Below are positions 43,241-58,812 of a stretch of 64,000 nucleotides of DNA, piece after piece. The stretch's first letter is position 1. Each line of letters starts with the position of its first letter. The position numbers and the translations under genes are program-made. The notes under the pieces were generated by a model. That model made no database searches. It was not told where the DNA came from and worked only from the letters and a program-made list of their open reading frames with translations. The DNA comes from Bradyrhizobium sp. CCGB12 (GTDB lineage Bacteria; Pseudomonadota; Alphaproteobacteria; Rhizobiales; Xanthobacteraceae), in NCBI RefSeq assembly GCF_024199845.1, contig NZ_JANADO010000001.1, positions 62,001 to 126,000 on the forward strand. Direction: 5' to 3'.

Positions 43241-43693
43241 TCAGTGCACGACCAGCACGGGTACGCTTCCGTCCGCCAGGACTTCTGATGTTTGGCTCCC
43301 AAGGAATAGCTTCTTGAGACCCCGGCGCCCGTGAGAGCCCATGACGATCAAGTCGCAAGCCGCGGACTTTGCTGTTGCGATAATCGTGCTGGCCGGATGC
43401 GCATTTGGAACATGCATGAGCTCGACAGATATCCCAGTCTGCTCCGCCATCGCGCGGGCCTCACCGAGGAATTTGTCCGCACGCTCCCTGGAGGCAGCAT
43501 CGAAGGCATCGATTTCCTGCTGCGAGGGTATCCAGCCTGAGGCATGTCCGCTGCCGTAGTCGATCGGCAGCGATTCCGTGACGGCAATGACTGTCACCCT
43601 CGCCCCTAGGGCCTTGGCCAATGCAATTCCATGCTTGAGACCGTTTCGCGCGACATCCGATCCATCCGTGCTCAAGAGAATATGGGCGTACAT
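43241..43693 (-). CDS. Universal stress protein (UspA family)
   Basis: A 150-residue single UspA domain. It begins MYAHILLSTDGSDVARNGLK and ends with the ATP-binding motif GSHGRRGLKKLFLGS, i.e. G-x2-G-x9-G-S, so it probably binds ATP. ATG at 43693 has GGGAG 8 bases upstream; a TTG two codons earlier is possible. Paired with a second Usp gene 75 bp upstream on the same strand. Such proteins aid survival under starvation, low oxygen or oxidative stress. Confidence 0.92.
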   Translation of the reverse strand: MYAHILLSTDGSDVARNGLKHGIALAKALGARVTVIAVTESLPIDYGSGHASGWIPSQQEIDAFDAASRERADKFLGEARAMAEQTGISVELMHVPNAHPASTIIATAKSAACDLIVMGSHGRRGLKKLFLGSQTSEVLADGSVPVLVVH

Positions 43694-43768
43694 TTGCAAG
43701 CTCCCTTCTCGGCGACAATGTCTCTATCTCACGGCGCGCAGGTCTGGTCTCGATGCGGGCCTATATGT

Positions 43769-44197
43769 TTAGGGGCAGACCAGCACGGGTATCTTCGCGT
43801 GCGACAGCACCTTGCTCGTCACGCTGCCGATGAGAAGCGCGGCAACTCCGCTGCGTCCGTGCGACGACATGACGATGAGATCACATCCCTTATCCGCGGC
43901 TGCGGCGATGATGGCCTGATGGGGGTGTCCGCTCTCCACCTGAATCGTCTGGCAGGAGACACCGGCTGTCTTGGCCTCATTTGCCACGGCATCGAGCACG
44001 CTCGCAGCCTGCTGCTTGCGGAACTCGACATAGGCGACGACGGCTTCCAGGAACCGGCTCGACACTTCAGAAAATGGTTCCACGACGAAGATGACGGATA
44101 CGGTGGCTCCAAGAGATTTCGCCAGCGTCAATCCGTGCGCCACCCCGCGCTCCGCGAGCTCAGATCCATCCGTCGGAATGAGAATATGACGATACAT
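43769..44197 (-). CDS. Universal stress protein (UspA family)
   Basis: A 142-residue UspA domain starting MYRHILIPTDGSELAERGVA. The nucleotide motif is MSSHGRSGVAALLIGS: the first Gly of G-x2-G-x9-GS is Ser here, so ATP binding may be altered. GGGAGGT precedes the ATG. It lies upstream of the other Usp gene and probably shares its transcript. The two proteins are only moderately alike, so they are not a recent duplication. Confidence 0.92.
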   Translation of the reverse strand: MYRHILIPTDGSELAERGVAHGLTLAKSLGATVSVIFVVEPFSEVSSRFLEAVVAYVEFRKQQAASVLDAVANEAKTAGVSCQTIQVESGHPHQAIIAAAADKGCDLIVMSSHGRSGVAALLIGSVTSKVLSHAKIPVLVCP

Positions 44198-44365: not shown

Positions 44366-45136
44366 CTAATGCGGCTCGTGAAACCTGCTCAGGAACGCCT
44401 TCAGCCGCTCGCTGCGCGGCTGGCGGATGGTCTCCTCGGGCGTCCCGATCTCGGCCATGACGCCATCGTTCATGAAGCCGACGCGGGTGGAGACGTCGGC
44501 AGCGAATGCCATCTCGTGCGTGACCAGCACCATGGTCATGCCTTCGGCGGCGAGGCTGCGGATGACGGACAGCACCTCGCCGACGAGCTCGGGATCGAGC
44601 GCCGAGGTCGGCTCATCGAACAGCATCACGCCGGGCTTCATCGCGAGTGCGCGGGCGATCGCGACGCGCTGCTTCTGGCCGCCGGACAGGCGGCTCGGAA
44701 AGGCGTCGGCCTTGTCGGCGAGGCCGACCTTGGCGAGCAGGTCGCGGCCGAGTTCGTTGGCTTCGCTCTGCGTCATGCCCTTCACCTGCACCGGACCCTC
44801 GGTGATATTGCCGAGCACCGACATATGCGGGAACAGATTGAAATGCTGAAACACCATGCCGACGCTGCGGCGAAGTAGCGCCAGCTGCGCATCGCCCGCG
44901 GCGCGCACGCCTTTGCCGAAGGCGAATTTGTGCGCGCCGATCGCGAGCTCGCCCTGCTGCGGCATTTCCAGCAAATTCAGGCAGCGCAGGAAGGTGGACT
45001 TGCCCGAGCCGGAGGCGCCGATCAGGGTGACGACCTCGCCGCGTGCGACCGAGAGCGATACGCCCTTGAGGACCTCGTGATCGCCGAATGCCTTGTGGAT
45101 GTTATCAGCGGCCAGCGTCGCGCCGTTCGCGTTCAT
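44366..45136 (-). CDS. Polar amino acid ABC transporter ATPase
   Basis: A 256-residue ATPase: Walker [11 protein letters not shown]-loop [18 protein letters not shown], signature LSGGQKQR, Walker [21 protein letters not shown], switch THEMAFA. Length and the [16 protein letters not shown] block are typical of GlnQ/HisP-type importers. ATG at 45136 overlaps the permease stop codon; a much longer open frame upstream is a shadow of the permease gene. It is the last gene of a three-gene minus-strand unit. Confidence 0.94.
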
Positions 45137-45795
45137 CGATGCGCTCCCATCTTCAGCTCGACGCGGTCCGCGACCAGCGTCAGCGGGAACAGCACGACGA
45201 AATAGAGCACGGCGATCGTGGTGTAGACCTCGAGCGGCTTGTAGCTCGTCGCCGTGATCACCGAGCCCTGGTAAAGGAGATCGCCGACCGCGACCACCGA
45301 CACCAGCGAGGTGTTCTTGAGCTGCATGATGGTCTGGTTGATGAAGGAGGGAATCATCACCTGGGTTGCCTGCGGCAGCACGATGCGGCGGAAGATCTTG
45401 CCGCGGCGCATGCCGATGGCACGCCCGGCCTCCCACTGGCCAGTGTCGACGGCCTCGATGCCGCCGCGAAAGATTTCGGCGTAGAACGAGCCGGCATAGA
45501 GCGACAGCGCGATGAAGCAGGCCATCGCCGGCGACATGTCGACGCCGATCAGGACGGGCAGGGCGTAGTACATCCAGACCAGCTGCACCAGGAGCGGCGT
45601 GCAGCGGAACACCTCGATGTAGAGACGCAGCGGCACCGAGACCCAGCGCGGTGCCGTCGTGCGCAGGATGCCGACGATCAGTCCGATCACGAGGCCCGCG
45701 GCTACCGTGATCACCGTGTAGAACAATGTGACCAGGAGCCCTTGCCAGATCAGGCCCCAATACGGCTTGAGCGCCGCGAACTCCCAGACATACAT
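45133..45795 (-). CDS. Polar amino acid ABC transporter permease
   Basis: A 220-residue HisM/GlnP-type permease with about five hydrophobic segments. The motifs [20 protein letters not shown] and [20 protein letters not shown], then VLPQA, are the family signatures. Only one permease gene is present, so it probably forms a homodimer. It follows the binding-protein gene by 13 bp and is coupled to the ATPase gene. Confidence 0.94.
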
Positions 45796-45808
45796 CGTCG
45801 AACGGCCG

Positions 45809-46648
45809 TCAGAACTGCACTTCGCCCGGAAGGTCGTCCGCGGTGAGGCCGACCGCCTCGAAGCCCTTGAGCATCCATTCGCGGGTCTGGCCCATCGAAC
45901 GATTGTAGTCGGCCCAGGCGCTCAGGAAATCCCTGTAGCGGCGGTCGCTCTCGGCGCGGATGCCCATGTTGGTCGGCAGCGTCAGCAGCGGGCGCGGGAT
46001 CGCGAGATCGCCGAGGTTCGGATTCTTCTTCAACGTCGAGACCGAGAGCACCGCCAGCGAGACATTGCAGTCCGCGCGGCCGGTCGCGACCGCGAGGATC
46101 GCCTCGTCGCGGTTCTTGAAGCCGAGGATGTTCGCCTTCGGACAGTAGCGGCGCGCGATCGTCTCGTGCGTCGAGCCGATGTCGACGGCGATCTTGACCT
46201 CGGGCTTGTTGAGCTCGGCCCAGGTCTGCGGCTTGGCAAAGCCCTTCTTGGTGATGACGGTGAAGGAGTGCACTAGGATCGGCGTCGAGAAGTCGATGAC
46301 GAGCGCGCGCTCCGGCGTCGGGTTCACGGCGAAAGCGAGGTCGACCTTGTCCGCCTGGAGGTCGAGGATCTGGTTGCCCCAGGTCGATTCCAGAGTCTCG
46401 ACCTTGGCGCCGAGCTTGCCGGCGATGTCCTTGGCCATCTCGATGCAGGCGCCCGACCACTCGTTGGTGGCGAGATCCTTGTGGAAGTAGGGCTCCTGGC
46501 CGACGATCACGGCGATCCGCAGCACGCCATTCTTCTTGATGCGGTCGAGCGTGGAGGTCGGTGCGGTGTCGGCCTTGGCCGAGCTGCTCGCGGCGGCAAT
46601 TGCTGCGCCTGCCAGCGCGACGGTGGTGAGAGCGTCCCTGCGATTCAT
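45809..46648 (-). CDS. Polar amino acid ABC transporter substrate-binding protein
   Basis: A 279-residue SBP_bac_3-type protein. The signal has a twin-Arg start (MNRRDALTTVALAG) and likely cleavage near SAKAD. Mature features: IKKNGVLRIAVIVGQEPYFH, FAVNPTPERALVIDFSTPIL, and VDIGSTHETIARRYCP with ligand-contact Thr/Ser region. Divergent from the 2-hydroxyacid dehydrogenase gene with a shared control region holding paired TGTATTCAG sites. The ligand is probably the amino acid broken down by the divergent enzymes. Confidence 0.93.
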   Translation of the reverse strand: MNRRDALTTVALAGAAIAAASSSAKADTAPTSTLDRIKKNGVLRIAVIVGQEPYFHKDLATNEWSGACIEMAKDIAGKLGAKVETLESTWGNQILDLQADKVDLAFAVNPTPERALVIDFSTPILVHSFTVITKKGFAKPQTWAELNKPEVKIAVDIGSTHETIARRYCPKANILGFKNRDEAILAVATGRADCNVSLAVLSVSTLKKNPNLGDLAIPRPLLTLPTNMGIRAESDRRYRDFLSAWADYNRSMGQTREWMLKGFEAVGLTADDLPGEVQF

Positions 46649-46701
46649 GGTCTCTGTCTCCCTGGCATTTGGGTCGGATCGTCTCCGGCCGCTGGACTAT
46701 T

Positions 46702-46846
46702 CCTGTATTCAGGATAAAATGCAATACGGTATTTCACGCTGCTGACCATTTGTGCGGCAAGGCAAAGATGAGCCCAATATCTTGGCAGGATTGCGCAAAA
46801 TTCGGTGGCAGCAGGGGTTGTCAATGGCATGCAAGTCTGAATACAA
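46702..46846. promoter_or_regulatory. Divergent control region with paired operator-like repeats
   Basis: The 9-mer TGTATTCAG occurs at 46704-46712 (inside CCTGTATTCAGG) and, inverted, at 46837-46845 (inside the 17-base AGTCTGAATACAAGACT, which has 5-bp inverted arms). An 11-base palindrome AATACGGTATT lies at 46723-46733. The sites face both the importer and the enzyme operon; the GntR/FCD regulator encoded at 53185 is the obvious candidate to bind them. Confidence 0.5.
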
Positions 46847-46885
46847 GACTGAACGCAATTATTTCTTGATCTGAAGGAGAGGCCT

Positions 46886-47803
46886 GTGCGCGCTCTATTC
46901 GTCGATGCGAACGAGACCCTGGCGGCGGTGACCGACAAGCTGCTGGGCATCGACAATCTGCCTGTTGCCATCAACCGCGATCCCTCGATCAAGCCCGACG
47001 ATCTGCCCGGCCTGCTCGGCGATTCCGAGATCATGATCGTCGATCACACGGCGGTGCCGACCGCGATTGCCGCAAAGTGCGCCAAGCTGAAGCACATCGT
47101 CTTCCTCGGCACCGGCGCGCGCAGCTACATGAATCCGGAAGAGCTCGCTGAGCGCGGTATCGCCGTTCACACCATCAAGGGTTATGGCGACACGGCCGTC
47201 GCCGAATGCGCGATCGCGCTGATGTGGGCCTCCGCGCGAAACTTTGGCGAGATGGACCGCGGCATGCGCGAGGGCAATTGGTTGCGCCGCGACGCGATGC
47301 AGCTCACCGGCAAGACCCTAGGCCTGATCGGCTTCGGCGGCATCGCCGCGGAAGCCGCCCGCATGGCGGCGGGTTGCGGCATGAAGGTGATCGCCTGGAA
47401 CAGGACACCGAAGACCCATCCCGGCGTCGAGTTCGTTTCGCTGGAGAAGCTGCTTGCCGAGAGCCACGTCATCTCGCTGCATCTGCTCCTCAACGACGAG
47501 ACCAAAGGCTTCCTATCGCGAGAGCGCATCGCGCAGATGCGACCCGGCAGCATCTTGATCAACACCGCGCGCGGAGCCGTCGTCGACGAGGACGCGATGC
47601 TCGATGCGCTCCGCTCCGGTCACATTGCGCACGCAGGCCTCGACGTCTTCACCGTCGAGCCACTGCCGGCTGGCCATGCCCTGACAAAACTGCCGAACGT
47701 GACGCTGTCGGCGCATTCGGCGTTCCGCACGCCGGAGGCAAGCGACAACCTCATCGGTGCCGCGCTCGACCACTGCCGCCGCATCATCGCCACCGGCAAG
47801 TAA
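46886..47803 (+). CDS. D-isomer-specific 2-hydroxyacid dehydrogenase
   Basis: A 305-residue NAD-dependent dehydrogenase. The nucleotide-binding motif is GLIGFGGIAAEAARM; the catalytic residues are Arg in NTARGAVVDEDAM, Glu in FTVEPLPAGH and His in LSAHSAFRTPE. It reduces a 2-oxo acid or oxidises a D-2-hydroxy acid. The GTG start has AAGGAGAGG upstream. It is the first gene of the long plus-strand run and could act on the 2-oxo acid made by the later oxidase or aminotransferase. Confidence 0.9.
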   Translation: MRALFVDANETLAAVTDKLLGIDNLPVAINRDPSIKPDDLPGLLGDSEIMIVDHTAVPTAIAAKCAKLKHIVFLGTGARSYMNPEELAERGIAVHTIKGYGDTAVAECAIALMWASARNFGEMDRGMREGNWLRRDAMQLTGKTLGLIGFGGIAAEAARMAAGCGMKVIAWNRTPKTHPGVEFVSLEKLLAESHVISLHLLLNDETKGFLSRERIAQMRPGSILINTARGAVVDEDAMLDALRSGHIAHAGLDVFTVEPLPAGHALTKLPNVTLSAHSAFRTPEASDNLIGAALDHCRRIIATGK

Positions 47804-47819
47804 AGCATAAGGACATCCC

Positions 47820-48173
47820 ATGTCGGATATCACCCGCATCGACCAGAACGCCCGCCGCAGCCGCGCTTCCGTGTTCGGCGATCTCGTCTTCCTCGCGGGA
47901 CAGGTGGCGGACACCAAGACCGCCGACATCACCCAGCAGACGAAAGAGGCGCTGGCCAAGGTCGATGACATGCTGGCGCGCGCCGGCACCGACAAGTCGC
48001 GCCTGCTCAGCGTGCAGGTCTGGCTCAAGACCATGGACGATTTCGACGCCATGAACGCGGTCTATGATGCCTGGGTCGTGCCTGATAACACGCCGACCCG
48101 CGCCTGCGGCAAGGTCGAGCTCGCCGATCCCGCCTTCCGCATCGAAGTGATCGCGATCGCCGCGCGCAAGTAA
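47820..48173 (+). CDS. RidA-family imine deaminase-like protein
   Basis: A 117-residue RidA/YjgF-like protein (VFGDLVFLAGQVADTKTADI, VDDMLARAGTDKSRLLSVQV, and PTRACGKVELADPAFRIEV near the end, where the conserved Arg sits). RidA proteins hydrolyse 2-imino acids released by flavin amino acid oxidases and PLP enzymes. Both kinds of enzymes are encoded downstream, so it fits well here as a detoxifying partner. It lies 16 bp after the dehydrogenase gene. Confidence 0.92.
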   Translation: MSDITRIDQNARRSRASVFGDLVFLAGQVADTKTADITQQTKEALAKVDDMLARAGTDKSRLLSVQVWLKTMDDFDAMNAVYDAWVVPDNTPTRACGKVELADPAFRIEVIAIAARK

Positions 48174-48183
48174 GGGCTCGGCC

Positions 48184-49410
48184 GTGACCGTCCAGGCTCC
48201 CGCATCGACCTTCCGCCCCGCACAGCGTATCAGCGCGATCGGCGTCTCCGAGATCCTCAAGATCGGCGCGGTCGCGCAGCGGCTGAAGCGCGAGGGACGG
48301 CCGGTGATCGTGCTGGGCGCCGGCGAGCCTGATTTCGACACGCCTGACCATGCCAAGGACGCGGCCGAGCGCGCCATCCGCGCCGGCCAGACCAAATACA
48401 CGATCTTGGACGGCACGCCGGAATTGAAGGCGGCAGTCGCCGAGAAATTCCGCCGCGAGAACGATCTCGTCTATGCCGCGGACGAGATCACCGCCGGCGC
48501 CGGCGCCAAGCAGGTGATCCACAACGCCTTCATGGCGACGCTCAGCCCCGGCGACGAGGTCATCCTCGCCGCGCCCTACTGGACCAGCTATGCCGACATG
48601 GTGCGCATTGCCGACGGCACGCCCGTCGACGTGCTCTGCCGTGAGGAGAACGGCTTTCGCTTGGATGCAGCCGATCTCGAACGCGCGATCACGCCGAAGA
48701 CGCGCTGGCTGCTTTTGAACTCACCGTCCAACCCGACCGGTGCGGCCTATTCGGCGGCACAGCTTCGCCCGATCCTGGACGTGCTGACGCGGCATCCGCA
48801 TGTCTGGCTGATGGCTGACGATATCTACGAGCACCTGATCTATGACGGAATGCCGTTCGTCACGGCCGCAGCGCTCGAACCGAGCCTGAAATCGCGCACG
48901 CTGACCGTCAACGGGGTCTCCAAGGCCTATGCCATGACCGGCTGGCGCGTCGGCTATGGCGGCGGTCCGCGCGAGCTGATCGCGGCGATGGCCGTGGTCC
49001 AGAGCCAGAGCACGACCAATCCGTCATCCGTGAGCCAGGCCGCGGCGATCGCTGCGCTGACCGGACCGCAGGACGTGCTGGTCGAGCGCCGCGCCGCGTT
49101 CCAGCGGCGCCGGAACATCGTGGTCGATGCGCTCAATGCCATCGACGGCGTCACCTGCCGACGGCCGGAAGGCGCGTTCTATACCTATGCGAGCTGCGCC
49201 GGCCTGATCGGACGCCGCACGCCGGATGGTGCCGCCATCGACAGCGATGCTGCGTTCTGCCGCTTTCTGCTGGAGAGACATGACGTGGCCGTGGTGCCGG
49301 GCAGCTGTTTCGGCCTTGCACCTTATTTCCGCCTGTCCTACGCCACCTCGGAACAAAACTTGCGCGAGGCCGTGATGCGCATCGCCAAAGCCTGCAGGGA
49401 GCTGTCATGA
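48184..49410 (+). CDS. Class I/II aminotransferase (aspartate aminotransferase-like)
   Basis: A 408-residue fold-type I PLP enzyme. Visible marks: LGAGEPDFDTPDH, TAGAGAKQVIHNAFMA, NSPSNPTGAAYS, then the Schiff-base Lys in NGVSKAYAMTGWRVGYGGGP and the carboxylate-binding Arg in YFRLSYATS. It starts with GTG at 48184 and ends overlapping the ThDP enzyme start (ATGA). The amino donor is unknown; in this context it may act on the imported amino acid itself. Confidence 0.92.
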   Translation: MTVQAPASTFRPAQRISAIGVSEILKIGAVAQRLKREGRPVIVLGAGEPDFDTPDHAKDAAERAIRAGQTKYTILDGTPELKAAVAEKFRRENDLVYAADEITAGAGAKQVIHNAFMATLSPGDEVILAAPYWTSYADMVRIADGTPVDVLCREENGFRLDAADLERAITPKTRWLLLNSPSNPTGAAYSAAQLRPILDVLTRHPHVWLMADDIYEHLIYDGMPFVTAAALEPSLKSRTLTVNGVSKAYAMTGWRVGYGGGPRELIAAMAVVQSQSTTNPSSVSQAAAIAALTGPQDVLVERRAAFQRRRNIVVDALNAIDGVTCRRPEGAFYTYASCAGLIGRRTPDGAAIDSDAAFCRFLLERHDVAVVPGSCFGLAPYFRLSYATSEQNLREAVMRIAKACRELS

Positions 49411-51068
49411 CCATTCGCAACACCCGCACCGGGGGCCAGATCCTGATCGATCAGCTCGTCGCGCAAGGCGTCGAGCGCGTCACCTGCGTGCCCGGTGAGA
49501 GCTATCTGGCCGCGCTCGATGCGCTGCATGACAGCCCGATCGACGTCGTGATCTGCCGCGCCGAAGGTGGTGCTGCGATGATGGCCGAAGCCTATGGCAA
49601 GCTCACCGGCCGGCCTGGCGTCTGCTTCGTCACCCGCGGCCCGGGCGCGACCAATGCCAGCCATGGCGTCCACATCGCGATGCAGGATTCGACGCCGATG
49701 ATCCTGTTCGTCGGCCAGGTCGACACCGGCATGCGCGAGCGCGAGGCCTTTCAGGAGCTCGACTACAAGGCGGTGTTCGGTACCATGGCGAAATGGGCGG
49801 TCGAGATCGATCGCCCCGACCGCATTCCGGAGCTGGTGGCGCGCGCCTTCCGTGTCGCGATGCAGGGCCGCCCCGGTCCGGTGGTGATCGCGCTGTCGGA
49901 GAACATGCTGACCGAGACCGCCGCCGTCGCCGATGCGATGCGCATCGAGCCCGCCGTGAGCTGGCCGGCGCCTGCCGACATCGAAAAGCTCGGCTCCATG
50001 CTTGCAGGCGCCAAGGCGCCATTGGTCATCCTCGGCGGTTCGCGCTGGACCGATGACGCCACCAGGAGCATCGCACGCTTTGCCGAGCGGTTCGACCTGC
50101 CGGTCGCCACCTCGTTCCGCCGGGCGTCGCTGATCGATGCCGATCACTCGCATTATGCCGGCGATCTCGGCATCGGGCCCAGCCCGGGCCTGAAGGCGCG
50201 CATCGAGGGCGCCGATGTCATCCTGCTGATCGGCGGCCGCATGTCGGAGATGCCGTCCTCGTCCTACACGCTGCTGGACATTCCGACCCCGCAGCAGAAG
50301 CTGATCCACGTGCATCCGGGCTCGGAAGAGCTTGGCCGGGTCTATCAACCGGCGCTGGCGATCCAGGCGACGCCGGCCGCCTTCGCCGCCGCGGTCGAGA
50401 CGCTGAAGCCTACCGGCGCGGTTGCATGGAAGGGCGAGGCCGCCAAGGCGCATGCCGACTACCTTGCCTGGACCGACAAGGCACGCGAGCTGCCGGGCAC
50501 GTTCCAGTACGGCCAGGTCATGACCTGGCTGCGCGATCGGCTGCCGAAGGACGCCATCGTCTGCAACGGTGCCGGCAACTATGCCGGCTGGATCCATCGC
50601 CATCACCGCTTCCACAGCTTTGCCGCGCAGCTCGCGCCGACCTCGGGGTCGATGGGCTACGGCGTGCCGGCGGGTGTGCTGGCCAAGCGGCAATATCCCG
50701 ATCGCGTCGTCGTCGCCTTTGCCGGTGACGGCTGCTTCCTGATGAATGGCCAGGAATTCGCGACCGCCGTGCAGTATGATGCCCCGCTGGTCGTTATCGT
50801 CGTCGACAATTCGCAATACGGCACCATCCGCATGCACCAGGAGCGCGACTATCCCGGTCGGGTCGTCGGTACCCAGCTCAAGAACCCGGATTTTGCGATG
50901 TACGCAAAAGCATTCGGCGGCCATGGCGAGCGGGTCGAGCGCACCGAACAGTTCGCGCCGGCCTTCGAGCGTGCGCTCGCCTCGGGCAAGCCGTCGATCC
51001 TGCACTGCATCATCGATCCGCGCGCGATGTCGGTCGGCAAGGATTTTGCCCGAGCGGTGAAGGCCTGA
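49407..51068 (+). CDS. Thiamine diphosphate-dependent enzyme, acetolactate synthase-like
   Basis: A 553-residue three-domain ThDP enzyme. The proton-relay Glu is in ICRAEGGAAMMAEAYGKLTG, and the cofactor motif is GDGCFLMNGQEFATAVQYDA followed by VDNSQYGTI. It is like the catalytic subunit of acetolactate synthase, but such paralogues in catabolic clusters often decarboxylate a 2-oxo acid. No regulatory small subunit is present, which argues against branched-chain biosynthesis. Coupled to the aminotransferase gene and 3 bp before the oxidase gene. Confidence 0.9.
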   Translation: MTIRNTRTGGQILIDQLVAQGVERVTCVPGESYLAALDALHDSPIDVVICRAEGGAAMMAEAYGKLTGRPGVCFVTRGPGATNASHGVHIAMQDSTPMILFVGQVDTGMREREAFQELDYKAVFGTMAKWAVEIDRPDRIPELVARAFRVAMQGRPGPVVIALSENMLTETAAVADAMRIEPAVSWPAPADIEKLGSMLAGAKAPLVILGGSRWTDDATRSIARFAERFDLPVATSFRRASLIDADHSHYAGDLGIGPSPGLKARIEGADVILLIGGRMSEMPSSSYTLLDIPTPQQKLIHVHPGSEELGRVYQPALAIQATPAAFAAAVETLKPTGAVAWKGEAAKAHADYLAWTDKARELPGTFQYGQVMTWLRDRLPKDAIVCNGAGNYAGWIHRHHRFHSFAAQLAPTSGSMGYGVPAGVLAKRQYPDRVVVAFAGDGCFLMNGQEFATAVQYDAPLVVIVVDNSQYGTIRMHQERDYPGRVVGTQLKNPDFAMYAKAFGGHGERVERTEQFAPAFERALASGKPSILHCIIDPRAMSVGKDFARAVKA

Positions 51069-51071
51069 GCG

Positions 51072-52337
51072 ATGGCGACCGGCCGCCACGTCGCGATCAT
51101 CGGTGCCGGCGCGGTCGGCGTGATCAGCGCCATCGAGGCGCTGCGCGAAGGGCATCGCGTCACGCTGATCGATCCGGGCGAGCCCGGCGGCGAACAGGCG
51201 GCGAGTTACGGCAATGCCGGCTGGCTCTCTTCGCATTCGGTGATCCCGCCGGCCGAGCCAGGCATCTGGAAGAAAGTGCCGGGCTATCTCTTGGATCCGC
51301 TCGGTCCGCTCGCGATCCGCTGGTCTTACTTGCCGAAGGCGCTGCCCTGGCTGGTCAAATACCTGCTCTCGGGCTGGACCGAGGCGCGGGTCGAAAAGAC
51401 GGCGTTTGCGCTGCGCGATCTCCTGAAGGACGCGCCGCTGCTGCACCGGAAGCTCGCCGAGGAGGCGGGCGTGCCCGAGCTGGTCGAGCGCAACGGTGTG
51501 ATGCATGTGTTCCCCGAGCGCGGCAATTTTGACAACGATCTCGGCTGGCGCCTGCGCAAGAAGGTTGGCGTCGAATGGCTTGAGCTGAACGCCGATGAGA
51601 TGCGTCAGCGCGAGCCGGATCTGCATCCGCGCTACAAGTTTGGTGTCGTCGTCGAAGAGGCCGGCCGCTGCCGCGATCCCGGTGCTTACGTTGCCGCCCT
51701 TGCCCAGCACGCACTCGCCAGCGGGGCCAAGCTGATTCGTGCCAAGGCGACGGGTCTCAAGCTGAACGGCGACAAGCTCGTCGCCGTCGTCACCGAGACC
51801 GCCGAGGTCCCTTGCGATGCCGTGGTGGTCGCCGCCGGCGCCCGCTCGAAGCAGCTCACCGCATCGGTCGGCGATCCCTTGCCGCTGGAGACCGAGCGCG
51901 GCTATCACGTCATGATCGAGAACCCGGAATCGGGTCCGCGCAGCTCCATGATGGCGTCGGATGCCAAGATGGTCGTGAACTGGACCGACAAGGGCCTGCG
52001 CGCGGCCGGTACCGTGGAGATCGCCGGCCTCGAGGCTGCGCCGAACTGGAAGCGCGCCGAGATCCTGCGCAACAACCTCTTCAGCATGTTCCCTAAACTG
52101 CCAAAGGACATTCCAGCCTCGCGCATCAAGACCTGGTTCGGTCATCGGCCGAGCATGCCGGATGGACTGCCCTGCATCGGCCATGCGCGCGCCTCGCGCG
52201 ACATCGTCTACGCCTTCGGCCACGGCCATGTCGGCCTGGTCGGCTCGGCCCGTACCGGCCGTCTCGTCGCGCAGCTCCTGAGCGGCAAGCAGCCGGAAAT
52301 TCCGCTCGCACCGTTCGCGCCCACTCGTTTCCTCTGA
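51072..52337 (+). CDS. DadA-like D-amino acid dehydrogenase (FAD)
   Basis: A 421-residue DAO-family flavoprotein. The FAD-binding start is HVAIIGAGAVGVISAIEALR, followed by ASYGNAGWLSSHSVIPP, typical of DadA. Later GHRPSMPDGLPCIGHARASR and GHGHVGLVGSARTGRLVA are conserved substrate and FAD contacts. It turns D-amino acids into 2-oxo acids plus ammonia, passing electrons to the respiratory chain. The racemase-like gene 9 bp downstream could supply the D-form. Confidence 0.92.
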   Translation: MATGRHVAIIGAGAVGVISAIEALREGHRVTLIDPGEPGGEQAASYGNAGWLSSHSVIPPAEPGIWKKVPGYLLDPLGPLAIRWSYLPKALPWLVKYLLSGWTEARVEKTAFALRDLLKDAPLLHRKLAEEAGVPELVERNGVMHVFPERGNFDNDLGWRLRKKVGVEWLELNADEMRQREPDLHPRYKFGVVVEEAGRCRDPGAYVAALAQHALASGAKLIRAKATGLKLNGDKLVAVVTETAEVPCDAVVVAAGARSKQLTASVGDPLPLETERGYHVMIENPESGPRSSMMASDAKMVVNWTDKGLRAAGTVEIAGLEAAPNWKRAEILRNNLFSMFPKLPKDIPASRIKTWFGHRPSMPDGLPCIGHARASRDIVYAFGHGHVGLVGSARTGRLVAQLLSGKQPEIPLAPFAPTRFL

Positions 52338-52346
52338 GATCGCACC

Positions 52347-53090
52347 ATGACCGCTTCAGCCAATTCGTCCTCCCGCATCGCCCGTGGCGGCAAGGCCATC
52401 TACGGCGCGCCGCTCGGCATTTTGATGCTGGAAGCGCGCTTCCCCCGCATTCCCGGTGACATGGGCAATGGCACGACCTGGCCTTTCCCGGTGCTCTATC
52501 GCGTGGTGAGCGGCGCCTCGCCGGAGAAGGTGGTGCTGAAGGGCGCGGCCGGCCTGCTGCCTGACTTCATCGATGCGGCGAAGGATCTGGTGCGGCTCGG
52601 GGCCGAGGCCATCACCACCAATTGCGGCTTTCTCTCACTGTTCCAGAAGGAGATCGCAGCGGCCGTCGGCGTTCCCGTCGCGACCTCGTCGCTGATGCAG
52701 GTGCCGTGGGTGCAGGCGACCTTGCCGCCGGGCAAGCGCGTCGGTCTCGTCACGGTGTCGGGGTCGACCTTGACGCCCGCCCATCTCGAAGGCGCCGGCG
52801 TGCCGCTCGACACGCCGCTGGTCGGAACCGAGAACGGCAATGAGTTTTTCCGCGTTCTGATCAAGGCCGAGAAGGACGACATGGACGTCGCGCAGGCCGA
52901 GCGTGACGTGGTCGAGGCCGGCAAGGAGCTCGTCGCCAAACATCCTGATGTCGGCGCCATCGTGCTCGAATGCACCAACATGCCGCCTTATGCGGCAGCC
53001 TTGCAGGCCGAAGTTGGCCTGCCGGTCTATGACATCTATTCCATGATCACCTGGTTTCATGCTGGACTGCGCCCGCGCACGTTCGCTTAA
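52347..53090 (+). CDS. Aspartate/glutamate/hydantoin racemase superfamily protein
   Basis: A 247-residue protein with the two catalytic cysteines of the cofactor-independent racemase fold: Cys93 in TTNCGFLSLF and Cys209 in LECTNMPPYA. Members include amino acid racemases, hydantoin racemase, maleate isomerase and arylmalonate decarboxylase. With both Cys residues present, racemisation is more likely than decarboxylation. Next to a DadA-like oxidase it most simply converts an L-amino acid to the D-form. Substrate unknown. Confidence 0.86.
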   Translation: MTASANSSSRIARGGKAIYGAPLGILMLEARFPRIPGDMGNGTTWPFPVLYRVVSGASPEKVVLKGAAGLLPDFIDAAKDLVRLGAEAITTNCGFLSLFQKEIAAAVGVPVATSSLMQVPWVQATLPPGKRVGLVTVSGSTLTPAHLEGAGVPLDTPLVGTENGNEFFRVLIKAEKDDMDVAQAERDVVEAGKELVAKHPDVGAIVLECTNMPPYAAALQAEVGLPVYDIYSMITWFHAGLRPRTFA

Positions 53091-53184
53091 GTCCGGCTGT
53101 CACGACGCTCTTCACAACCTCTGTTGTTGTTTGCATTGCAATCACTCCCACAGCCCCGGTATATTGGACTGTGTTCTGGTGTGA

Positions 53185-53898
53185 ATGCAGCCTATGAAGA
53201 GCAACGTGGAACTGGCTTCCGATAGTATCGTCGATCGCGTCTATGAACAGCTCAAGGCGATGGCCGTGAGCTATGAGTTCAAGCCGGGCGAACGGCTCAA
53301 CGAGGGCGAGCTGGCAAAACGCCTGGGCGTCAGCCGCACACCGCTGCGCGAGGCGCTCAACCGCCTCAACACCGAAGGCTTTCTGCGCTTCACGCCCGGC
53401 AAGGGCTTCTTCTGCCGCGAGCTCGACGCGCACGAGATCTTCGATCTCTACGAGCTGCGCAAGTCGATCGAGGTCGCCTCGATCCGCCTCGCCATCAAGC
53501 GCGCCAAGGATGAGGACATCGACGCGCTGCTGAAATTCCTCGAAGCCACCGGTCCCGATCCGGGCGAGCGCTCGTCTGTCGAACTGGTCGAGCTCGACGA
53601 GACCTTTCACGAGCGGCTGATGGCGATGTCTGACAATGCCGAGATGCTGCGCGTGCTGCGCAACGTCAACGCCCGCATCCGCTTCGTGCGCTGGATCGAC
53701 ATGGACCGCATCAATCGCTCCAACACGCAAGCCGAGCACCGCGCCGTCGTCGAAGGCCTAAAGGCGCGTGACGAAGAGGCTTGCGTCTCCGTTCTGGAGA
53801 AGCACATCGATCGCCGCCTCGACCGCATCACGTCCGCGATCAAGGAAGGCTACGCGCAGATCTACATGCCAGCCGCGGCGCGGTCGGCTGCGAATTGA
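53185..53898 (+). CDS. GntR-family regulator, FCD subfamily
   Basis: A 237-residue regulator. The winged helix is at about 10-75: DRVYEQLKAMAVSYEFKPGE, then LAKRLGVSRTPLREALNRLN. An FCD effector domain follows, with DETFHERLMAMSDNAEMLRV (Asp, His) and AEHRAVVEGLKARDEEACVS (His). ATG at 53185 or 53194; an imperfect inverted repeat CTGTGTTC/GAATGCAG (53169-53190) overlaps the first start, so the second may be used and the repeat may be an autoregulatory site. It probably controls the importer and enzyme genes around it. Confidence 0.9.
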   Translation: MQPMKSNVELASDSIVDRVYEQLKAMAVSYEFKPGERLNEGELAKRLGVSRTPLREALNRLNTEGFLRFTPGKGFFCRELDAHEIFDLYELRKSIEVASIRLAIKRAKDEDIDALLKFLEATGPDPGERSSVELVELDETFHERLMAMSDNAEMLRVLRNVNARIRFVRWIDMDRINRSNTQAEHRAVVEGLKARDEEACVSVLEKHIDRRLDRITSAIKEGYAQIYMPAAARSAAN

Positions 53899-53933
53899 CG
53901 CCCAGGCGGCGTCCTATTTCAGGAGGCGCAAGC

Positions 53934-54713
53934 ATGACGCTCAAGGACAAGGTTGCGGCTATCACCGGCGCGGCCCGCGGCATCGGCAAGGCCTGCGCGA
54001 AGAGATTCCTGGACGACGGCGTCAAGGTCGTGATCTCGGATGTCGATGCCGACGGCCTGGCGGCGACGGCCGCCGAGCTCGGGCGGCCGGATGCCTTGCG
54101 CACCGTCGTCGGCAATGTCGCCAAGCGCGCGGATGTGGACCAGTTCGTCGCGACCGCCGTGAAGGAGTTCGGTCGGCTCGACATCATGGTCAACAATGCC
54201 GGCGTCGCCCGTAACCGGGACATCCTCGAAATTTCCGAGGCGGAATTCGACGAAATCATCGGCATCAATTTGAAGGGCGCGTTCTTCGGCGTGCAAGCCG
54301 CAGCGAAGCAGATGATCGCGCAGGGTGGCGGCGGGGTCATCATCAACATGTCCTCGGTGAATGCGCTGCTGGCGATCCCGTCGCTGGCGACCTACGCCAT
54401 GTCCAAGGGCGGCATGAAGCAGCTCACCTCGGTCGCTGCTGTCGCGCTCGCCCCGCACAACATCCGCGTCGTCGCGGTCGGACCGGGCACGATCCTGACC
54501 GACATGGTGGCGTCGTCCATCTACACCTCCGAGGATGCCCGTAAGACCGTGATGTCGCGCACGCCAGCCGGCCGTGGCGGCGAGCCGAGCGAAGTCGCGT
54601 CGGTCGTAGCGTTCCTTGCCAGTGATGATGCGTCCTACATCACCGGACAGACGATCTATCCGGACGGTGGCCGGCTGATCCTGAACTACACGGTGCCGGT
54701 GAAGGAGAAGTAG
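53934..54713 (+). CDS. Short-chain dehydrogenase/reductase
   Basis: A 259-residue classical SDR: TGAARGIGKACAKRF (cofactor motif TGxxxGIG), NNAGV, catalytic Ser in INMSSVNALL, and YAMSKGG (YxxxK). The C-terminal GQTIYPDGGRLILNY is also typical. ATG at 53934 follows AGGAGG; the longer frame upstream overlaps the regulator. It is the last plus-strand gene of the amino acid block and may oxidise or reduce a downstream intermediate, but the 35-bp gap after the regulator also allows independent use. Confidence 0.93.
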   Translation: MTLKDKVAAITGAARGIGKACAKRFLDDGVKVVISDVDADGLAATAAELGRPDALRTVVGNVAKRADVDQFVATAVKEFGRLDIMVNNAGVARNRDILEISEAEFDEIIGINLKGAFFGVQAAAKQMIAQGGGGVIINMSSVNALLAIPSLATYAMSKGGMKQLTSVAAVALAPHNIRVVAVGPGTILTDMVASSIYTSEDARKTVMSRTPAGRGGEPSEVASVVAFLASDDASYITGQTIYPDGGRLILNYTVPVKEK

Positions 54714-54799: not shown

Positions 54800-55594
54800 T
54801 CACTCCGCCGCGGCCGTCATGCCGTGGCCGAGCCGCTTCGAGATGCCGCCGGCGCAATCTCGCAAGGCGTGCGCGATCGGGCTGTCCCAGCGCGCGTCGA
54901 ACGTACCTTCCGGCCCCATCGCGGTGATGACCAGCGCGACATGGCCGGAATGGTCGAACACGGGCGCGGAGAACGCGTTGACGCCGGGCAGGGGATCGCC
55001 GAGCGCGCGGGCGAGGCCGTGCTTGCGCACCTCCGTGAGCATCTCGGCGACCTTCGCACCCTTGACGGCGCGCTTCGGGTTGTAGCCGACGCCGTGACGG
55101 TCGAGCCCGCTTTCGAGCGCGGCGCTGATCGTCTTGTCCGGCAGGAACGCCGCAAAGGCGCGGCCCGTGGCCGTCTCCAGCAACGCCATCACCGAGCCGG
55201 CGCGCATCACGATGTGGACGGGCTGGGCCGGCTCTTCGAGCTGCACCACGGTCGGACCGTGCGTGCCCCACACCGCCAGCGAGACCGCGTGCCCGATCTG
55301 GCTTGCCAGTGCGGCGATCTTGGGACGTGCGATGCGCACGCCGGAGAGCCGGCGCAGGCTGATCAGGCCGAGCTCCAGCGCCAGCGCACCGATCTCGTAG
55401 CGGCCGGTGCTCTCGTCCTGCTCGATCAGTCCGATGCGCGAGAAGCTGGCGAGATAAGGATGCGCCTTGGCCGGCGTCATGCCGGCTTCGCGGGCAAGAT
55501 CGCGCAGCATCATCGGCTCGCCGCTTCTGGCGAGCGCGCGAAGCAATTCTCCGCCGACCTCGATCGACTGGATGCCGCGGCTTTCCCTCTTCAT
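54800..55594 (-). CDS. IclR-family transcriptional regulator
   Basis: A 264-residue IclR protein. N-terminal winged helix: IEVGGELLRALARSGEPMML and DLAREAGMTPAKAHPYLASF. The C-terminal effector domain includes AVWGTHGPTVVQLEE and FDHSGHVALVITAMGPEGTF, a conserved IclR stretch. ATG at 55594 has AGGAGG close by. It is the third gene of a minus-strand unit with an FAD dehydrogenase and a binding protein, and probably responds to the substrate of that unit. Confidence 0.9.
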   Translation of the reverse strand: MKRESRGIQSIEVGGELLRALARSGEPMMLRDLAREAGMTPAKAHPYLASFSRIGLIEQDESTGRYEIGALALELGLISLRRLSGVRIARPKIAALASQIGHAVSLAVWGTHGPTVVQLEEPAQPVHIVMRAGSVMALLETATGRAFAAFLPDKTISAALESGLDRHGVGYNPKRAVKGAKVAEMLTEVRKHGLARALGDPLPGVNAFSAPVFDHSGHVALVITAMGPEGTFDARWDSPIAHALRDCAGGISKRLGHGMTAAAE

Positions 55595-55611
55595 GCGCCT
55601 CCTGGCGTACG

Positions 55612-57345
55612 CTACGCCGCGTTGCGCTTGGCGGCGCTGTCGGCAAGATGTCTGCCGGCAATGTAGCCGAAGGTCAGCGCCGGCCCAAGCGTGATGCCGG
55701 CGCCGGGATAGTTGCCACCCATGATGCTCGCCATGTCGTTGCCGGCGGCATAGAGCCCGGGAATGACGCGGTCTTCGGCGTCGAGCGCGCGGGCGTTCTC
55801 GTCGGTGACGATGCCGGCATAGGTGCCGAGATCGCCGATCACCATCTTGATGGCGTAGAACGGCCCGTTCTCGATCGGCGCGACGCAGGGGTTGGGACCG
55901 TGCAGCGCATCGCCCTGGTAGCGGTTATAGGCCTTCGAGCCCTTGCCGAAGGCGACGTCCTGTCCCAGCGGCGCGGTCGCATTGAATTGCCTGACGGTTT
56001 CGATGAACGCCTTCGCATCGATGCCGGCTTTCGCAGCCAGCGCCTCGAGCGTGTCGCCCCGCATGAGATAGCCGGTATTCAAATGATGGCCTGTTGGCAT
56101 CGGGAAGGGCGGCACGCAGCCAAGGCCGTACTTCCGCAGCGTCTTGTGATCGCAGACGAGATAGGCCGCGATCTCCTCGCCGGGCTTGGCCGCCTTGACC
56201 ATGGCCTGGACGAAGTCGTGATAGGAATTGCCTTCATTCGCAAAACGCCTGCCGTCGCGCATCACCGCGATCACGCCGGGTTTGGCGCGGTCGATGAAAT
56301 GCGGCATCACGCCCTTCGAGCCGTCCTTGCGCGTGGTCTGCGATACCGGCACCCAGGCCGCCGCGTTCGGCAGGCGATCCTCGACATGCCCGCCGGCGCT
56401 CTCCGCAAGGCGCAGGCCGTCACCGGTGTTGCCGGTGGGACCGGGCGAAAAATGCTCATTGCCGGTCGGCGCATGTGGAAACATCTTCTTGCGCCGCTCG
56501 ACGTCATGCGGAAAGCCGCCGCAGGCGAGCACGACACCCTGGCGCGCGCGGACTCGCACCTCGCGCCCCTCGCGCGAAACGATCGCGCCGGTGACGGTAC
56601 CGTTCTCGACCGTCAGCTCGCGCACCGGGGAGGATAGCCACATCGGAATCTTCAAATCCTGCGCCGACTTCGCGAGGCGCCCGGCGAGGGCATTGCCGTT
56701 GGTCAGTGTCATGCCACGGCCGTAGCGGAGCACGTCCATCAAATGCCGCGACAGACGCTTGGCGACATAGATCGCCGAGGTCAGCGATTTCGTCGCGCGC
56801 ATGAAATGGACGATATCCTTGCCTGAACCAAGCATCATGCCAAACACGGTCAGTTCAGGCAGGGGCATGCCGAGTGTCCCGATGTGGTCACCGAGCTCGC
56901 GTCCATCGAACGGGCGCGCCACCATCGAACGCCCGCCCTGGGTGCCGCCGGGCGCCTCCGAGTGGTAGTCGGGAAACACCAGCGGCATGTCGAAGCGGAG
57001 CGCTGTCTTGGTGGTAAAGAAATCGACCGCCTCGGGACCGGCGGTCAGGAACGCATCGACACGCGCAGCGTCGTAATTGTTGCCGGCCTCGTGACGCAAG
57101 TAAGTGCGGGCTTGCTCCGGCGTCTCCGTGATGCCGTAAGCCTTCGCCAGCGAGGTGCCGGGAATCCAGAGCCAGCCGCCGGAGCGGGCGGTGGTGCCGC
57201 CGAAGCGCGGCTCCTTCTCGACGATCAAGACGTCGAGGCCGCGATAGCGCGCGGTGATCGCGGCCGACATGCCGGAGGCGCCCGATCCGGCCACGAGCAC
57301 ATCGCACTCGTACGTCTCAATTGCGCTATGCTCGCTGCCGGTCAT
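55612..57345 (-). CDS. FAD-dependent dehydrogenase, fumarate reductase/3-ketosteroid dehydrogenase family
   Basis: A 577-residue flavoprotein of the FAD_binding_2 family. FAD motif: DVLVAGSGASGMSAAITARY, then FGGTTARSGGWLWIPG. The C-terminal end carries GLYAAGNDMASIMGGNYPGA and GITLGPALTFGYIAGRHLA, the usual second FAD contact. Relatives include 3-ketosteroid delta-1-dehydrogenase, urocanate reductase and tricarballylate dehydrogenase; the ending resembles the steroid-type group, but the substrate is open. It starts 7 bp after the binding-protein gene and is followed by the IclR gene, so the three form an operon. Confidence 0.87.
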   Translation of the reverse strand: MTGSEHSAIETYECDVLVAGSGASGMSAAITARYRGLDVLIVEKEPRFGGTTARSGGWLWIPGTSLAKAYGITETPEQARTYLRHEAGNNYDAARVDAFLTAGPEAVDFFTTKTALRFDMPLVFPDYHSEAPGGTQGGRSMVARPFDGRELGDHIGTLGMPLPELTVFGMMLGSGKDIVHFMRATKSLTSAIYVAKRLSRHLMDVLRYGRGMTLTNGNALAGRLAKSAQDLKIPMWLSSPVRELTVENGTVTGAIVSREGREVRVRARQGVVLACGGFPHDVERRKKMFPHAPTGNEHFSPGPTGNTGDGLRLAESAGGHVEDRLPNAAAWVPVSQTTRKDGSKGVMPHFIDRAKPGVIAVMRDGRRFANEGNSYHDFVQAMVKAAKPGEEIAAYLVCDHKTLRKYGLGCVPPFPMPTGHHLNTGYLMRGDTLEALAAKAGIDAKAFIETVRQFNATAPLGQDVAFGKGSKAYNRYQGDALHGPNPCVAPIENGPFYAIKMVIGDLGTYAGIVTDENARALDAEDRVIPGLYAAGNDMASIMGGNYPGAGITLGPALTFGYIAGRHLADSAAKRNAA

Positions 57346-57352
57346 CTCTGCC

Positions 57353-58567
57353 TCACTTCTTCAAGAGCGGACATTTGGATTCGGAGACCGGGCGAAAGGC
57401 GTCCTCGCCCTTCACGGTCTTGACGATCTCCAGATAGTCCCACGGTTCCTTGGACTGCTCGGGCGTTTTTACCTTGGCAAGATACATGTCGCGGATGACG
57501 CGGCCGTCCTCGCGCAACTTGCCGCCATGGACGAATGTATCCTCGATCGGCAGCTCGCGCATCTTGGCCATCACCTTGGCGGGATCGTCGGTTCCGGCGG
57601 CCTTGATGGCCTTGAGATAGTGCAGCACCGAACCGTAGACGCCGGTTTGGATCATGGTCGGCATCACCTTGGTGCGCTCATAGAATTTTTTCGACCAGGC
57701 CCGCGTCGCCTCGTCCATGTTCCAGTACGAGGCTGTCGTCATATAGGTGCCCTGCGCGGCCTTCAGGCCGATCGCGTGCACGTCGGTGTCGAACATCAAG
57801 AGGCCGACGAGCTTCTGGCCGCCCTGGACGAGGCCGAATTCGCCGGACTGCTTGATGGCGTTATCCGTGTCCTGGCCGGCATTGGCGAAGGCGACGACGT
57901 CGGATTTCGAGCTCTGCGCCTGGAGCGCGAAGGAGGAGAAGTCCGCGGTGTTGGTCGGGTGCTTGACGCCGCCGAGCACCTTGCCGCCCATCTCGTTGAT
58001 GAAGCGGGTGGCGTCCTTTTCGAGCTGCTGGCCGAAGGCGTAGTCGGCGGTGATGAAGTACCAGGATTTGCCGCCTTCCTTGATCACGGCGGAGGCCGTC
58101 ACCTTGGACAACGCATAGGTATCGTAGGTGAAGTGCACGGTGTTCGGGCTGCAAAGCTCGTCGGTCAGCGAGCTTGCGCCGGGGCCGGAGAGCAGGGCGA
58201 TCTTGTTGCGCTCGCGCACCATGTTGTGCACGGCGATCGCGATGCCGGAATTGGGGATGTCGACGACGGCGTCGACCTTGCCGTTGTCGAACCAGCCGCG
58301 CACGATCTGCACGCCGACGTCGGTCTTCATCTGGTGGTCGGCGCTGATGATCTCGATCGGCTTGCCGAGCACGGTCGGCCCAAACTCCTCCACCGCCATC
58401 TTCGCGGCTTCGACCGAGCCCGGCCCGCTGTTGTCGCGGCCCCAACTCGACAGATCCGTCAGCACCCCGATCCGCACTGCGTCATCGGAGACTTGCGCGG
58501 TCGCCGCCGATGTCATGGCTGCCGAAGTCATGGCCGCGAGCATGGCGCAGGCCAAAAGCCCTCTCAT
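57353..58567 (-). CDS. Branched-chain amino acid-type ABC binding protein (orphan)
   Basis: A 404-residue Peripla_BP_6 protein. Signal peptide MRGLLACAMLAAM then an ATSAAM-type tandem repeat, cleavage near TAQV. Mature start VRIGVLTDLSSWGRDNSGPG and later SWYFITADYAFGQQLEKDAT are typical of LivJ-like proteins, many of which bind aromatic acids rather than leucine. No permease or ATPase gene lies nearby, so it must borrow a membrane complex from elsewhere. ATG at 58567 with GAGAGGG upstream; the longer frame to 58621 is rejected. Confidence 0.9.
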   Translation of the reverse strand: MRGLLACAMLAAMTSAAMTSAATAQVSDDAVRIGVLTDLSSWGRDNSGPGSVEAAKMAVEEFGPTVLGKPIEIISADHQMKTDVGVQIVRGWFDNGKVDAVVDIPNSGIAIAVHNMVRERNKIALLSGPGASSLTDELCSPNTVHFTYDTYALSKVTASAVIKEGGKSWYFITADYAFGQQLEKDATRFINEMGGKVLGGVKHPTNTADFSSFALQAQSSKSDVVAFANAGQDTDNAIKQSGEFGLVQGGQKLVGLLMFDTDVHAIGLKAAQGTYMTTASYWNMDEATRAWSKKFYERTKVMPTMIQTGVYGSVLHYLKAIKAAGTDDPAKVMAKMRELPIEDTFVHGGKLREDGRVIRDMYLAKVKTPEQSKEPWDYLEIVKTVKGEDAFRPVSESKCPLLKK

Positions 58568-58725
58568 CGTCGTTCCCTCTCTTATTGGCCGCTTGGCGCG
58601 GCGGGCTATTTCTATACACAAATTAGATATTATAAAATTAGTTTGTCAATGGCGAATAAGGTGGGCGATGAGGTTCCGTGGCCGTCGAGACGATGTCGCG
58701 GAACATGCGCAACTGCCTCAACGCC

Positions 58726-58812
58726 CGTGATTGCGAGCGGAGCGAAGCAATCCAGACTATTTCCGCGGAGACACTCTGGATTGCTTCGTCGCAAGGGCTC
58801 CTCGCAATGACG
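58726..58812. repeat. Palindromic repeat, second copy of the 27307 family
   Basis: Left arm 58726-58756 and right arm 58776-58812 match the arms of the element at 27317-27396 (shared GCGAAGCAATCCAGA and TCTGGATTGCTTCG), with a TTTCCGCGGA core in the loop. The right arm carries an extra insertion and mismatches, so this copy is decayed. It lies between the divergent binding-protein and transporter genes. Confidence 0.75.

Follow-up and report, generated by a model that had tools for sequence, protein, structure and literature searches.

The window analysed here (64,000 bases, positions 62001–126000 of contig 1 of a 9.4-Mb Bradyrhizobium genome) carries a block of eleven genes at 44366–54713. 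On the left, the block encodes an ATP-binding cassette (ABC) importer consisting of an ATPase, a permease and a family-3 solute-binding protein (SBP). Across a divergent promoter follow a D-isomer-type 2-hydroxyacid dehydrogenase (HADH), a RidA-family protein, an aminotransferase, a thiamine diphosphate (ThDP) enzyme, a DadA-like FAD oxidase/dehydrogenase (DAO), a racemase-family protein with two cysteines, a GntR-type regulator and a short-chain dehydrogenase/reductase (SDR). We tentatively read this block, with a probability of roughly 0.45, as a regulated operon that would break down, by dad-type logic, an amino-acid-like solute with a carboxylate group. This solute most probably has no free primary α-ammonium group (a cyclic imino or lactam acid, or an N-substituted amino acid). 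The eleven genes form layers and no single indivisible unit: what lasts is the ThDP–DAO pair, in most cases together with the racemase, and the importer, RidA, aminotransferase and HADH are exchangeable or lost.

The linkage was established in a sample of 98 Bradyrhizobium genomes. Orthologues of the racemase gene (at least 94% identity) are present in 49 of them, of the DAO gene (at least 75%) in 62 and of the ThDP gene (at least 83%) in 61, the last being the DAO genomes minus G016, whose contig stops within the locus. The ThDP and DAO genes are adjacent and on the same strand in all 61 genomes that have both, and in 48 of these the racemase gene lies beside the pair. All 49 racemase loci were fetched; one was too short and 48 were read. 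The ThDP, DAO and racemase genes are found in all 48, the SDR in 42, GntR in 28, HADH in 24, the SBP in 23, RidA in 17, and the permease, ATPase and aminotransferase in an identical set of 11. These sets are nested: the 11 fall within the 17 loci with RidA, the 17 within the 24 with HADH, and the 24 within the 28 with GntR. Since 3′ remnants of the aminotransferase gene persist in other loci that lack the intact gene, the larger gene set is the older one and was subsequently lost. A junction of 145–147 bp with such a remnant is identical in seven of 13 loci examined, which suggests a small number of deletion events that were then inherited or exchanged by recombination. Because of this shared junction, an independent-loss count on the core gene tree (ten losses each for aminotransferase, permease and ATPase) was rejected as a count of events.

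Twelve loci have the SBP gene, with no internal stop, in the absence of permease or ATPase genes. This lone SBP is under purifying selection (median dN/dS of 0.113 vs 0.097 for SBPs beside a permease, one of 11 of which has an internal stop). In six lone-SBP genomes assembled into one to three contigs, a permease search (E up to 1e-45) returned only 45–57% paralogues, and aminotransferase paralogues of at least 57% are present in all six. Paralogues could thus back up the permease and the aminotransferase in the six genomes tested, and the lone SBP may rely on a permease encoded elsewhere or serve another purpose.

The linkage extends beyond the genus. The named loci are the best 80 of 575, with L222–L284 lying outside Bradyrhizobium; of these 63, 56 yielded the racemase gene. 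Within 8 kb of it, the DAO gene is found in 32 of the 56 loci, GntR in 16, HADH in eight, ThDP in seven, RidA in six and the aminotransferase in five. The order HADH–RidA–aminotransferase–ThDP–DAO–racemase recurs in four loci: L222 of Bosea thiooxidans, L226 of a Burkholderiaceae bin (two racemase copies; bins can be mixed), Plastoroseomonas hellenica (L230, where an SBP gene is inserted between DAO and racemase) and Nitratireductor indicus (L275). Partial sets occur in more. Such recurrence of the enzyme order, in four of the 56 loci, supports a functional link between the genes. Bordetella genomosp. 4 (L240) has every enzyme except ThDP in a rearranged order, and Rhodomicrobium and Pararoseomonas have HADH–DAO–racemase without ThDP, RidA or aminotransferase. 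The importer changes from locus to locus: the same ABC system is found in L222 and L240, a TAXI-type tripartite ATP-independent periplasmic (TRAP) transporter in L226 and L275, and a different family-3 SBP in L230 and L236. A DctP-type TRAP transporter stands beside HADH–DAO–racemase in Rhodomicrobium (L228) and beside DAO–racemase–GntR in L260.

In a class-wide sample of 52 racemase-family genes (from 51 fetched loci, five of which yielded none; weaker matches were left out), the DAO gene is near in 15 cases, the ThDP gene in 15 and both in 11. Controls were 40 windows centred on other PRK08199-type ThDP genes, reduced to 39 when L092, which carries ThDP, DAO and racemase genes, was moved to the racemase loci. 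The DAO gene is near in none of the 39 (in one of 40 with L092 back) and a second ThDP gene in three. Fisher's test for DAO enrichment gives 9.6e-5 for the class-wide sample and 2.5e-10 for the named loci as counted, or 7.1e-4 and 3.5e-9 with L092 as a control; the value for ThDP is 0.016 (0.028 without L092). The sets behind these values are phylogenetically non-independent, and members of the same loci went into the profiles.

A scan of viral contigs with the racemase produced seven pattern matches, none of which was confirmed, and a plasmid scan found annotated relatives but, in the six regions inspected, no named pathway. On one Agrobacterium plasmid (L102), a racemase relative adjoins genes for RidA and an AspDH-domain protein, and genes of FAD, 2Fe-2S and NAD/FAD oxidoreductases come after it; the oxidase here is of a different type, with similar partners.

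All eleven genes in the window are intact (Table 1). From left to right, the gaps between them are −4, 13, 237 (the divergent promoter), 16, 10, −4, 3, 9, 94 and 35 bases, so the inventory and the tight packing given in a preliminary description of this DNA, made from the sequence alone, are confirmed. The open reading frame at 44366–45760 was rejected as the ATPase gene: its start is too early, and the ATPase begins at 45136. Among the matches listed, only the ThDP enzyme, the racemase-like protein, the subfamily domain of the permease and the SDR pass an NCBIfam cut-off. The ThDP enzyme belongs to the PRK08199 subfamily (NF006052, 896.9 bits, cut-off 539). The DAO carries the PF01266 domain and scores 187.5 bits against the PRK00711 model NF001933, under its cut-off of 383. 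RidA exceeds the PF01042 threshold (76.8 bits, cut-off 27.3) and stays under that of TIGR00004 (53.3 bits, cut-off 106.25), and the aminotransferase stays under that of PRK06107 (541.6 bits, cut-off 617). The residues needed for catalysis in the ThDP enzyme, aminotransferase, HADH, RidA and racemase-like protein are all present.

Table 1. Features of the block, in window coordinates.
Feature	Position	Strand	Basis
ABC importer ATP-binding protein, polar-amino-acid type	44366–45136	-	PF00005; best NCBIfam matches TcyN/GlnQ/EhuA/HisP, all under cut-off
Importer permease, HEQRo type	45133–45795	-	PF00528; TIGR01726 above cut-off
Family-3 solute-binding protein (SBP)	45809–46648	-	PF00497 and fold; carboxylate Arg kept, Leu at the α-ammonium Asp position
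Divergent promoter region carrying CTGTATTCAG, a conserved footprint and candidate GntR operator	46649–46885	.	
D-isomer-type 2-hydroxyacid dehydrogenase (HADH)	46886–47803	+	PF02826/PF00389; R229/E258/H277 present
RidA-family protein	47820–48173	+	PF01042; Arg94 present
Class I/II aminotransferase	48184–49410	+	PF00155; pyridoxal phosphate (PLP) Lys247 present
ThDP enzyme, PRK08199 subfamily	49407–51068	+	NF006052; Glu53 and GDG...N motif
DadA-like FAD oxidase/dehydrogenase (DAO)	51072–52337	+	PF01266
Two-Cys Asp/Glu/hydantoin-racemase-family protein (PRK07475)	52347–53090	+	Cys93, Cys209
Weak imperfect footprint copies upstream of gntR	53169–53190	.	Two matches, two mismatches each
GntR/FCD-family regulator	53185–53898	+	PF07729, PF00392
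SDR, assigned to right-hand module	53934–54713	+	PRK07231 above cut-off

The substrate class is suggested in the first place by the SBP. In receptors of this fold, we take an Asp to clamp the α-ammonium group of the ligand and an Arg to bind its α-carboxylate. Among 35 distinct homologues of the window's SBP, the Arg is kept in all and the Asp in none (nine are gapped at this column). The nearest solved relatives by sequence are those of the AncCDT-1/cyclohexadienyl dehydratase lineage; by fold AncCDT-1 comes first, tied with other amino acid receptors. Because the residue presumed to hold the α-ammonium group is absent in 35 of 35 homologues, the SBP does not, to judge from its sequence, look like a canonical L-amino-acid receptor, and the earlier proposal that a plain L-amino acid is imported is no longer favoured. 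The Asp of AncCDT-1 is absent, and cyclohexadienyl dehydratase activity is not claimed for the SBP. A second clamp-less SBP is encoded in the same genome (L197:4025–8359, C1 at about 7.85 Mb) together with a permease, an ATPase, an SDR and an enolase-superfamily enzyme; no racemase gene is found within the 14.5 kb read around it.

The racemase-like protein matches PF01177 (44.3 bits, cut-off 31) and PRK07475 (332.1 bits, cut-off 231), and neither of its two NCBIfam matches is an allantoin or hydantoin racemase model. Cys93 and Cys209 are invariant in 34 aligned sequences, and each is present in 41 of 42 in another alignment. In the fold comparison, allantoin and hydantoin racemases are at the top of the matches listed, at 12–20% identity. 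These and one aspartate racemase stand 2 to 4 Z units above arylmalonate decarboxylase (AMDase), and glutamate racemases overlap AMDase. Both catalytic-type cysteines and a racemase fold are therefore found, as expected for the racemase-type protein that had been described. It is improbable that this protein is instead a decarboxylase or a cis–trans isomerase (of the AMDase or maleate isomerase type) in a dicarboxylic acid pathway. Overlap of AMDase with the glutamate racemases notwithstanding, the other racemases score higher, and the AMDase pattern, in which only the second Cys is present and the first position is a Gly (Gly74, according to PDB titles that name Gly74Cys), does not fit a family with both Cys invariant. 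Such an activity would also leave the DAO and RidA without an amine.

A broader proposal, which we consider unlikely, is that the two-Cys PRK07475 proteins epimerise cyclic imino or lactam acids (of the pyroglutamate, hydroxyproline or pipecolate type). They would then form a non-PLP family apart from the proline racemases and enolase-type epimerases, with unrelated importers (clamp-less ABC, DctP-TRAP, TAXI-TRAP) recruited to the same enzyme block. If true, the clamp-less SBP subfamily near AncCDT-1 would indicate what type of ligand belongs to the lineage that lies between arginine receptors and cyclohexadienyl dehydratase.

Additional racemase-family genes accompany some of the Bradyrhizobium loci. 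A second paralogue, about 40% identical and absent from the window, ends the importer genes in L031, L032 and L033. A racemase of a second kind (TIGR00035 above cut-off) lies near and divergent from ThDP–DAO–racemase in 14 of the 48 loci, and 13 of the 14 lack the SBP (e.g. L021, L023, L028, L029, L030 and L035).

A distant form of the gene set combines a DctP-TRAP transporter, DAO, an acetolactate-synthase-type ThDP enzyme and the racemase in seven loci (L047, L050, L051, L052, L054, L056 and L058). Its ThDP enzyme is 23–29% identical to that of the window; GntR is present in four of the seven loci and an enolase-superfamily gene in three. Two TRAP receptors of this form, when compared with the PDB, are both closest to 6wgm, 2pfz and 2pfy. 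We take these three to represent a pyroglutamate-binding DctP group, and 2pfy and 2pfz to be pyroglutamate-bound DctP proteins of Bordetella. Two Bordetella DctP proteins solved with pyroglutamate are described in the available part of PMC5812351. In L056, from a 1.3-Mb genome, a DoeA-like M24 enzyme (6191–7408; 414 bits, cut-off 613) is located near the TRAP-type system.

In L260, a Hydantoinase_A/B protein of the 5-oxoprolinase type (1208 residues long) overlaps gntR downstream of the racemase. HyuA-type genes were rejected as a general partner of the racemase: they occur in racemase loci L059, L156 and L260 and in control L099, with no enrichment, and only that of L260 is within the operon. 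Four other pattern matches are Bug-type receptors. The window's own genome has two HyuA/HyuB-like pairs outside the window, one HyuA with two in-frame stops. In Pseudooceanicola (L276:4140–8717), an AspDH-like gene, a two-subunit AcnX pair, DAO and racemase stand in a row, an arrangement that might serve as a clue to an uncharacterised AcnX type II class. A Gemmobacter bin (L282) has DAO–racemase in similar surroundings without the AcnX pair, and no AcnX was found in the window's own genome. Circumstantial support for a cyclic or N-substituted acid comes from the racemase fold, the pyroglutamate-receptor relatives, the one 5-oxoprolinase-type gene and the one AcnX pair. The substrate clues conflict, since others point to lysine or pipecolate (L038/L040) or to common amino acids (the SBP of L230).

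Several observations weigh against our reading of the block. Another residue of the SBP may take the place of the missing Asp and bind the amine. Pyroglutamate, being a lactam, cannot itself be the substrate of a DadA-type oxidase, so no single molecule satisfies both the TRAP clue and the oxidase unless its ring is opened, a step that the window lacks. A paralogous Bradyrhizobium operon (L038/L040) consists of ThDP, a saccharopine-dehydrogenase-like enzyme, an SBP, two racemase paralogues, an ABC importer and DAO. It lies near HglS and, in L038, also near L-piperidine-6-carboxylate dehydrogenase, a setting suggestive of lysine or pipecolate. In L230, the family-3 SBP (best model TIGR01096, under cut-off) is presumably AapJ-like and suits a common amino acid. 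With these loci in mind, the compound imported, racemised and oxidised could be a common L-amino acid of polar or basic type, or else lysine/pipecolate, with the SBP binding the ammonium group in another way. The SBP is closest to AncCDT-1, which binds L-arginine according to the accessible part of PMC7683729, and its best NCBIfam match, under cut-off, is the Lys/Arg/Orn receptor family TIGR01096. We nevertheless hold this alternative to be somewhat unlikely, because the Asp is missing from every one of the homologues and the importer is swapped for TRAP systems, which are reported to recognise their ligands by the carboxylate (PMC4646407, as far as its available text goes).

The unity of the system is also open to objection. 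Thirteen of the 61 ThDP–DAO pairs have no racemase orthologue (G003, G004, G005, G007, G009, G010, G042, G044, G049, G069, G070, G077 and G083), so inversion is not always needed. Two of these genomes, G005 and G009, have only distant racemase relatives, located elsewhere in the genome, and strains without the racemase may use the D-form only or a different racemase. In G083 (C19, about 89.8–92.9 kb), the ThDP and DAO genes are intact and the racemase is reduced to broken remnants beside the DAO. Outside Bradyrhizobium, no DAO gene is near the racemase in 24 of the 56 loci and no ThDP gene in 49, and the 40 PRK08199 neighbourhoods elsewhere show no consistent partner, the DAO being absent from all 39 control windows. 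Together with the nested loss of the outer genes, this would suit a chance neighbourhood in which the ThDP–DAO pair, the racemase and an importer/HADH/RidA/aminotransferase module share no pathway. We find that very improbable in view of the same gene order in Bosea, Nitratireductor, Plastoroseomonas and the Burkholderiaceae bin and of HADH–DAO–racemase occurring without the other three enzymes in Rhodomicrobium and Pararoseomonas. The preliminary description had presented the genes as one system, including its importer. Neighbourhood comparison upholds the linkage, with ThDP and DAO adjacent in all 61 genomes of the genus, but not a fixed importer or a fixed set of outer genes, which come and go; the permease and ATPase are limited to 11 of 48 Bradyrhizobium loci, and other families have TAXI- or DctP-TRAP systems or another SBP in their place.

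The footprint CTGTATTCAG is found in the window at 46703–46712 (plus strand) and 46837–46846 (minus strand, one mismatch). An exact copy lies between the SBP and HADH genes in 22 of the 24 HADH-bearing loci vs none of the 24 that lack HADH, and GntR is present in all 24 of the former. It is also found in the Bosea locus and, in L260, 38 bases ahead of the ThDP start. The class of footprints with two mismatches is at chance level overall (20 found vs 23.4 expected). On sequence grounds, CTGTATTCAG is a candidate GntR operator. Promoter and terminator scans gave nothing above chance level.

For the catabolic operon that we favour, we infer the following reactions and substrate class. The importer would take up the acid, and the two-Cys protein would invert its α-carbon through proton transfer. 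The DadA-like oxidase would turn the D-form into an imine, whose hydrolysis to a 2-oxo acid RidA would accelerate. The 2-oxo acid might then undergo decarboxylation or condensation (ThDP enzyme), reduction (HADH) or transamination, with GntR presumably controlling the divergent promoter.

The SDR, previously counted as a member of the block, tracks the right-hand module instead. Of the 42 racemase loci that contain it, 18 have neither the regulator nor the dehydrogenase, and in 16 of the 48 it is accompanied, on its upstream side, by a split ComDE-like ThDP pair. It probably belongs to this neighbour module and not to the block. The right-hand module (54800–60233) encodes an IclR regulator, an FAD oxidoreductase (PRK06134 above cut-off), a LivK-type SBP and an MFS protein; across the 48 racemase loci, IclR with the adjoining FAD gene is found in 40 and LivK in 37. 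To the left of the importer, two adjacent proteins (43241–44197), which we take to be universal stress proteins, are also seen beside a few relatives.

What the clamp-less SBP binds matters for an open evolutionary question, namely how a solute receptor turns into an enzyme (PMC7683729, in its accessible part). One substrate question joins three subfamilies: the PRK07475 racemases, the PRK08199 ThDP enzymes and the clamp-less SBPs. The catabolic gene set they form is common and apparently unnamed, with the racemase in 49 and the ThDP–DAO pair in 61 of 98 Bradyrhizobium genomes.

This gene set is undescribed in the open-licence literature searched, and several known systems resemble parts of it. 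The arginine transaminase pathway (AruH/AruI with DauA/DauB) likewise combines an aminotransferase, an acetolactate-synthase-like ThDP decarboxylase and a DadA-like oxidase. Unlike AruI, the window's ThDP enzyme is a PRK08199 protein and scores 239.5 bits against the 5-guanidino-2-oxopentanoate decarboxylase model NF005712, whose cut-off is 500. Allantoin and hydantoin racemases are nearest in fold to the racemase-like protein, but at the low identity given above, and a Pfam scan found no allantoinase or hydantoinase among the block proteins.

The comparisons that follow are limited to the available parts of the cited papers. Rid genes clustered with those of FAD-dependent amine oxidases have been reported (PMC4433059), and RidA stands beside such an oxidase in both cases; a racemase/ThDP set is not described in that part of the paper. 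L-hydroxyproline (Lhp) clusters share with the block a cofactor-independent epimerase, a D-specific FAD dehydrogenase and an importer, and their enolase- or AcnX-type dehydratases have counterparts beside some relatives here (PMC5144071). The Lhp epimerase belongs to the proline racemase family (PMC5144071), whereas no such epimerase is found among the ten block proteins scanned or in the SDR. The closest likeness in logic is to the alanine system dadRAYX of P. aeruginosa, in which a racemase produces the D-form, a DadA-type FAD enzyme converts it into an imine and a Rid protein hydrolyses the imine (PMC9714295). The oxidase–RidA–2-oxo acid route proposed earlier is a coherent reading, but its core was already known from this system. 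The hallmarks of dadRAYX, a PLP alanine racemase and an AsnC/Lrp-type regulator, are replaced here by a two-Cys PF01177/PRK07475 protein and a GntR/FCD regulator, and the ThDP enzyme, dehydrogenase, aminotransferase and importer are extra. The system in the Bradyrhizobium window is real, linked and modular; it would run the known racemise, oxidise and Rid-hydrolyse logic with other protein families and additional branches.

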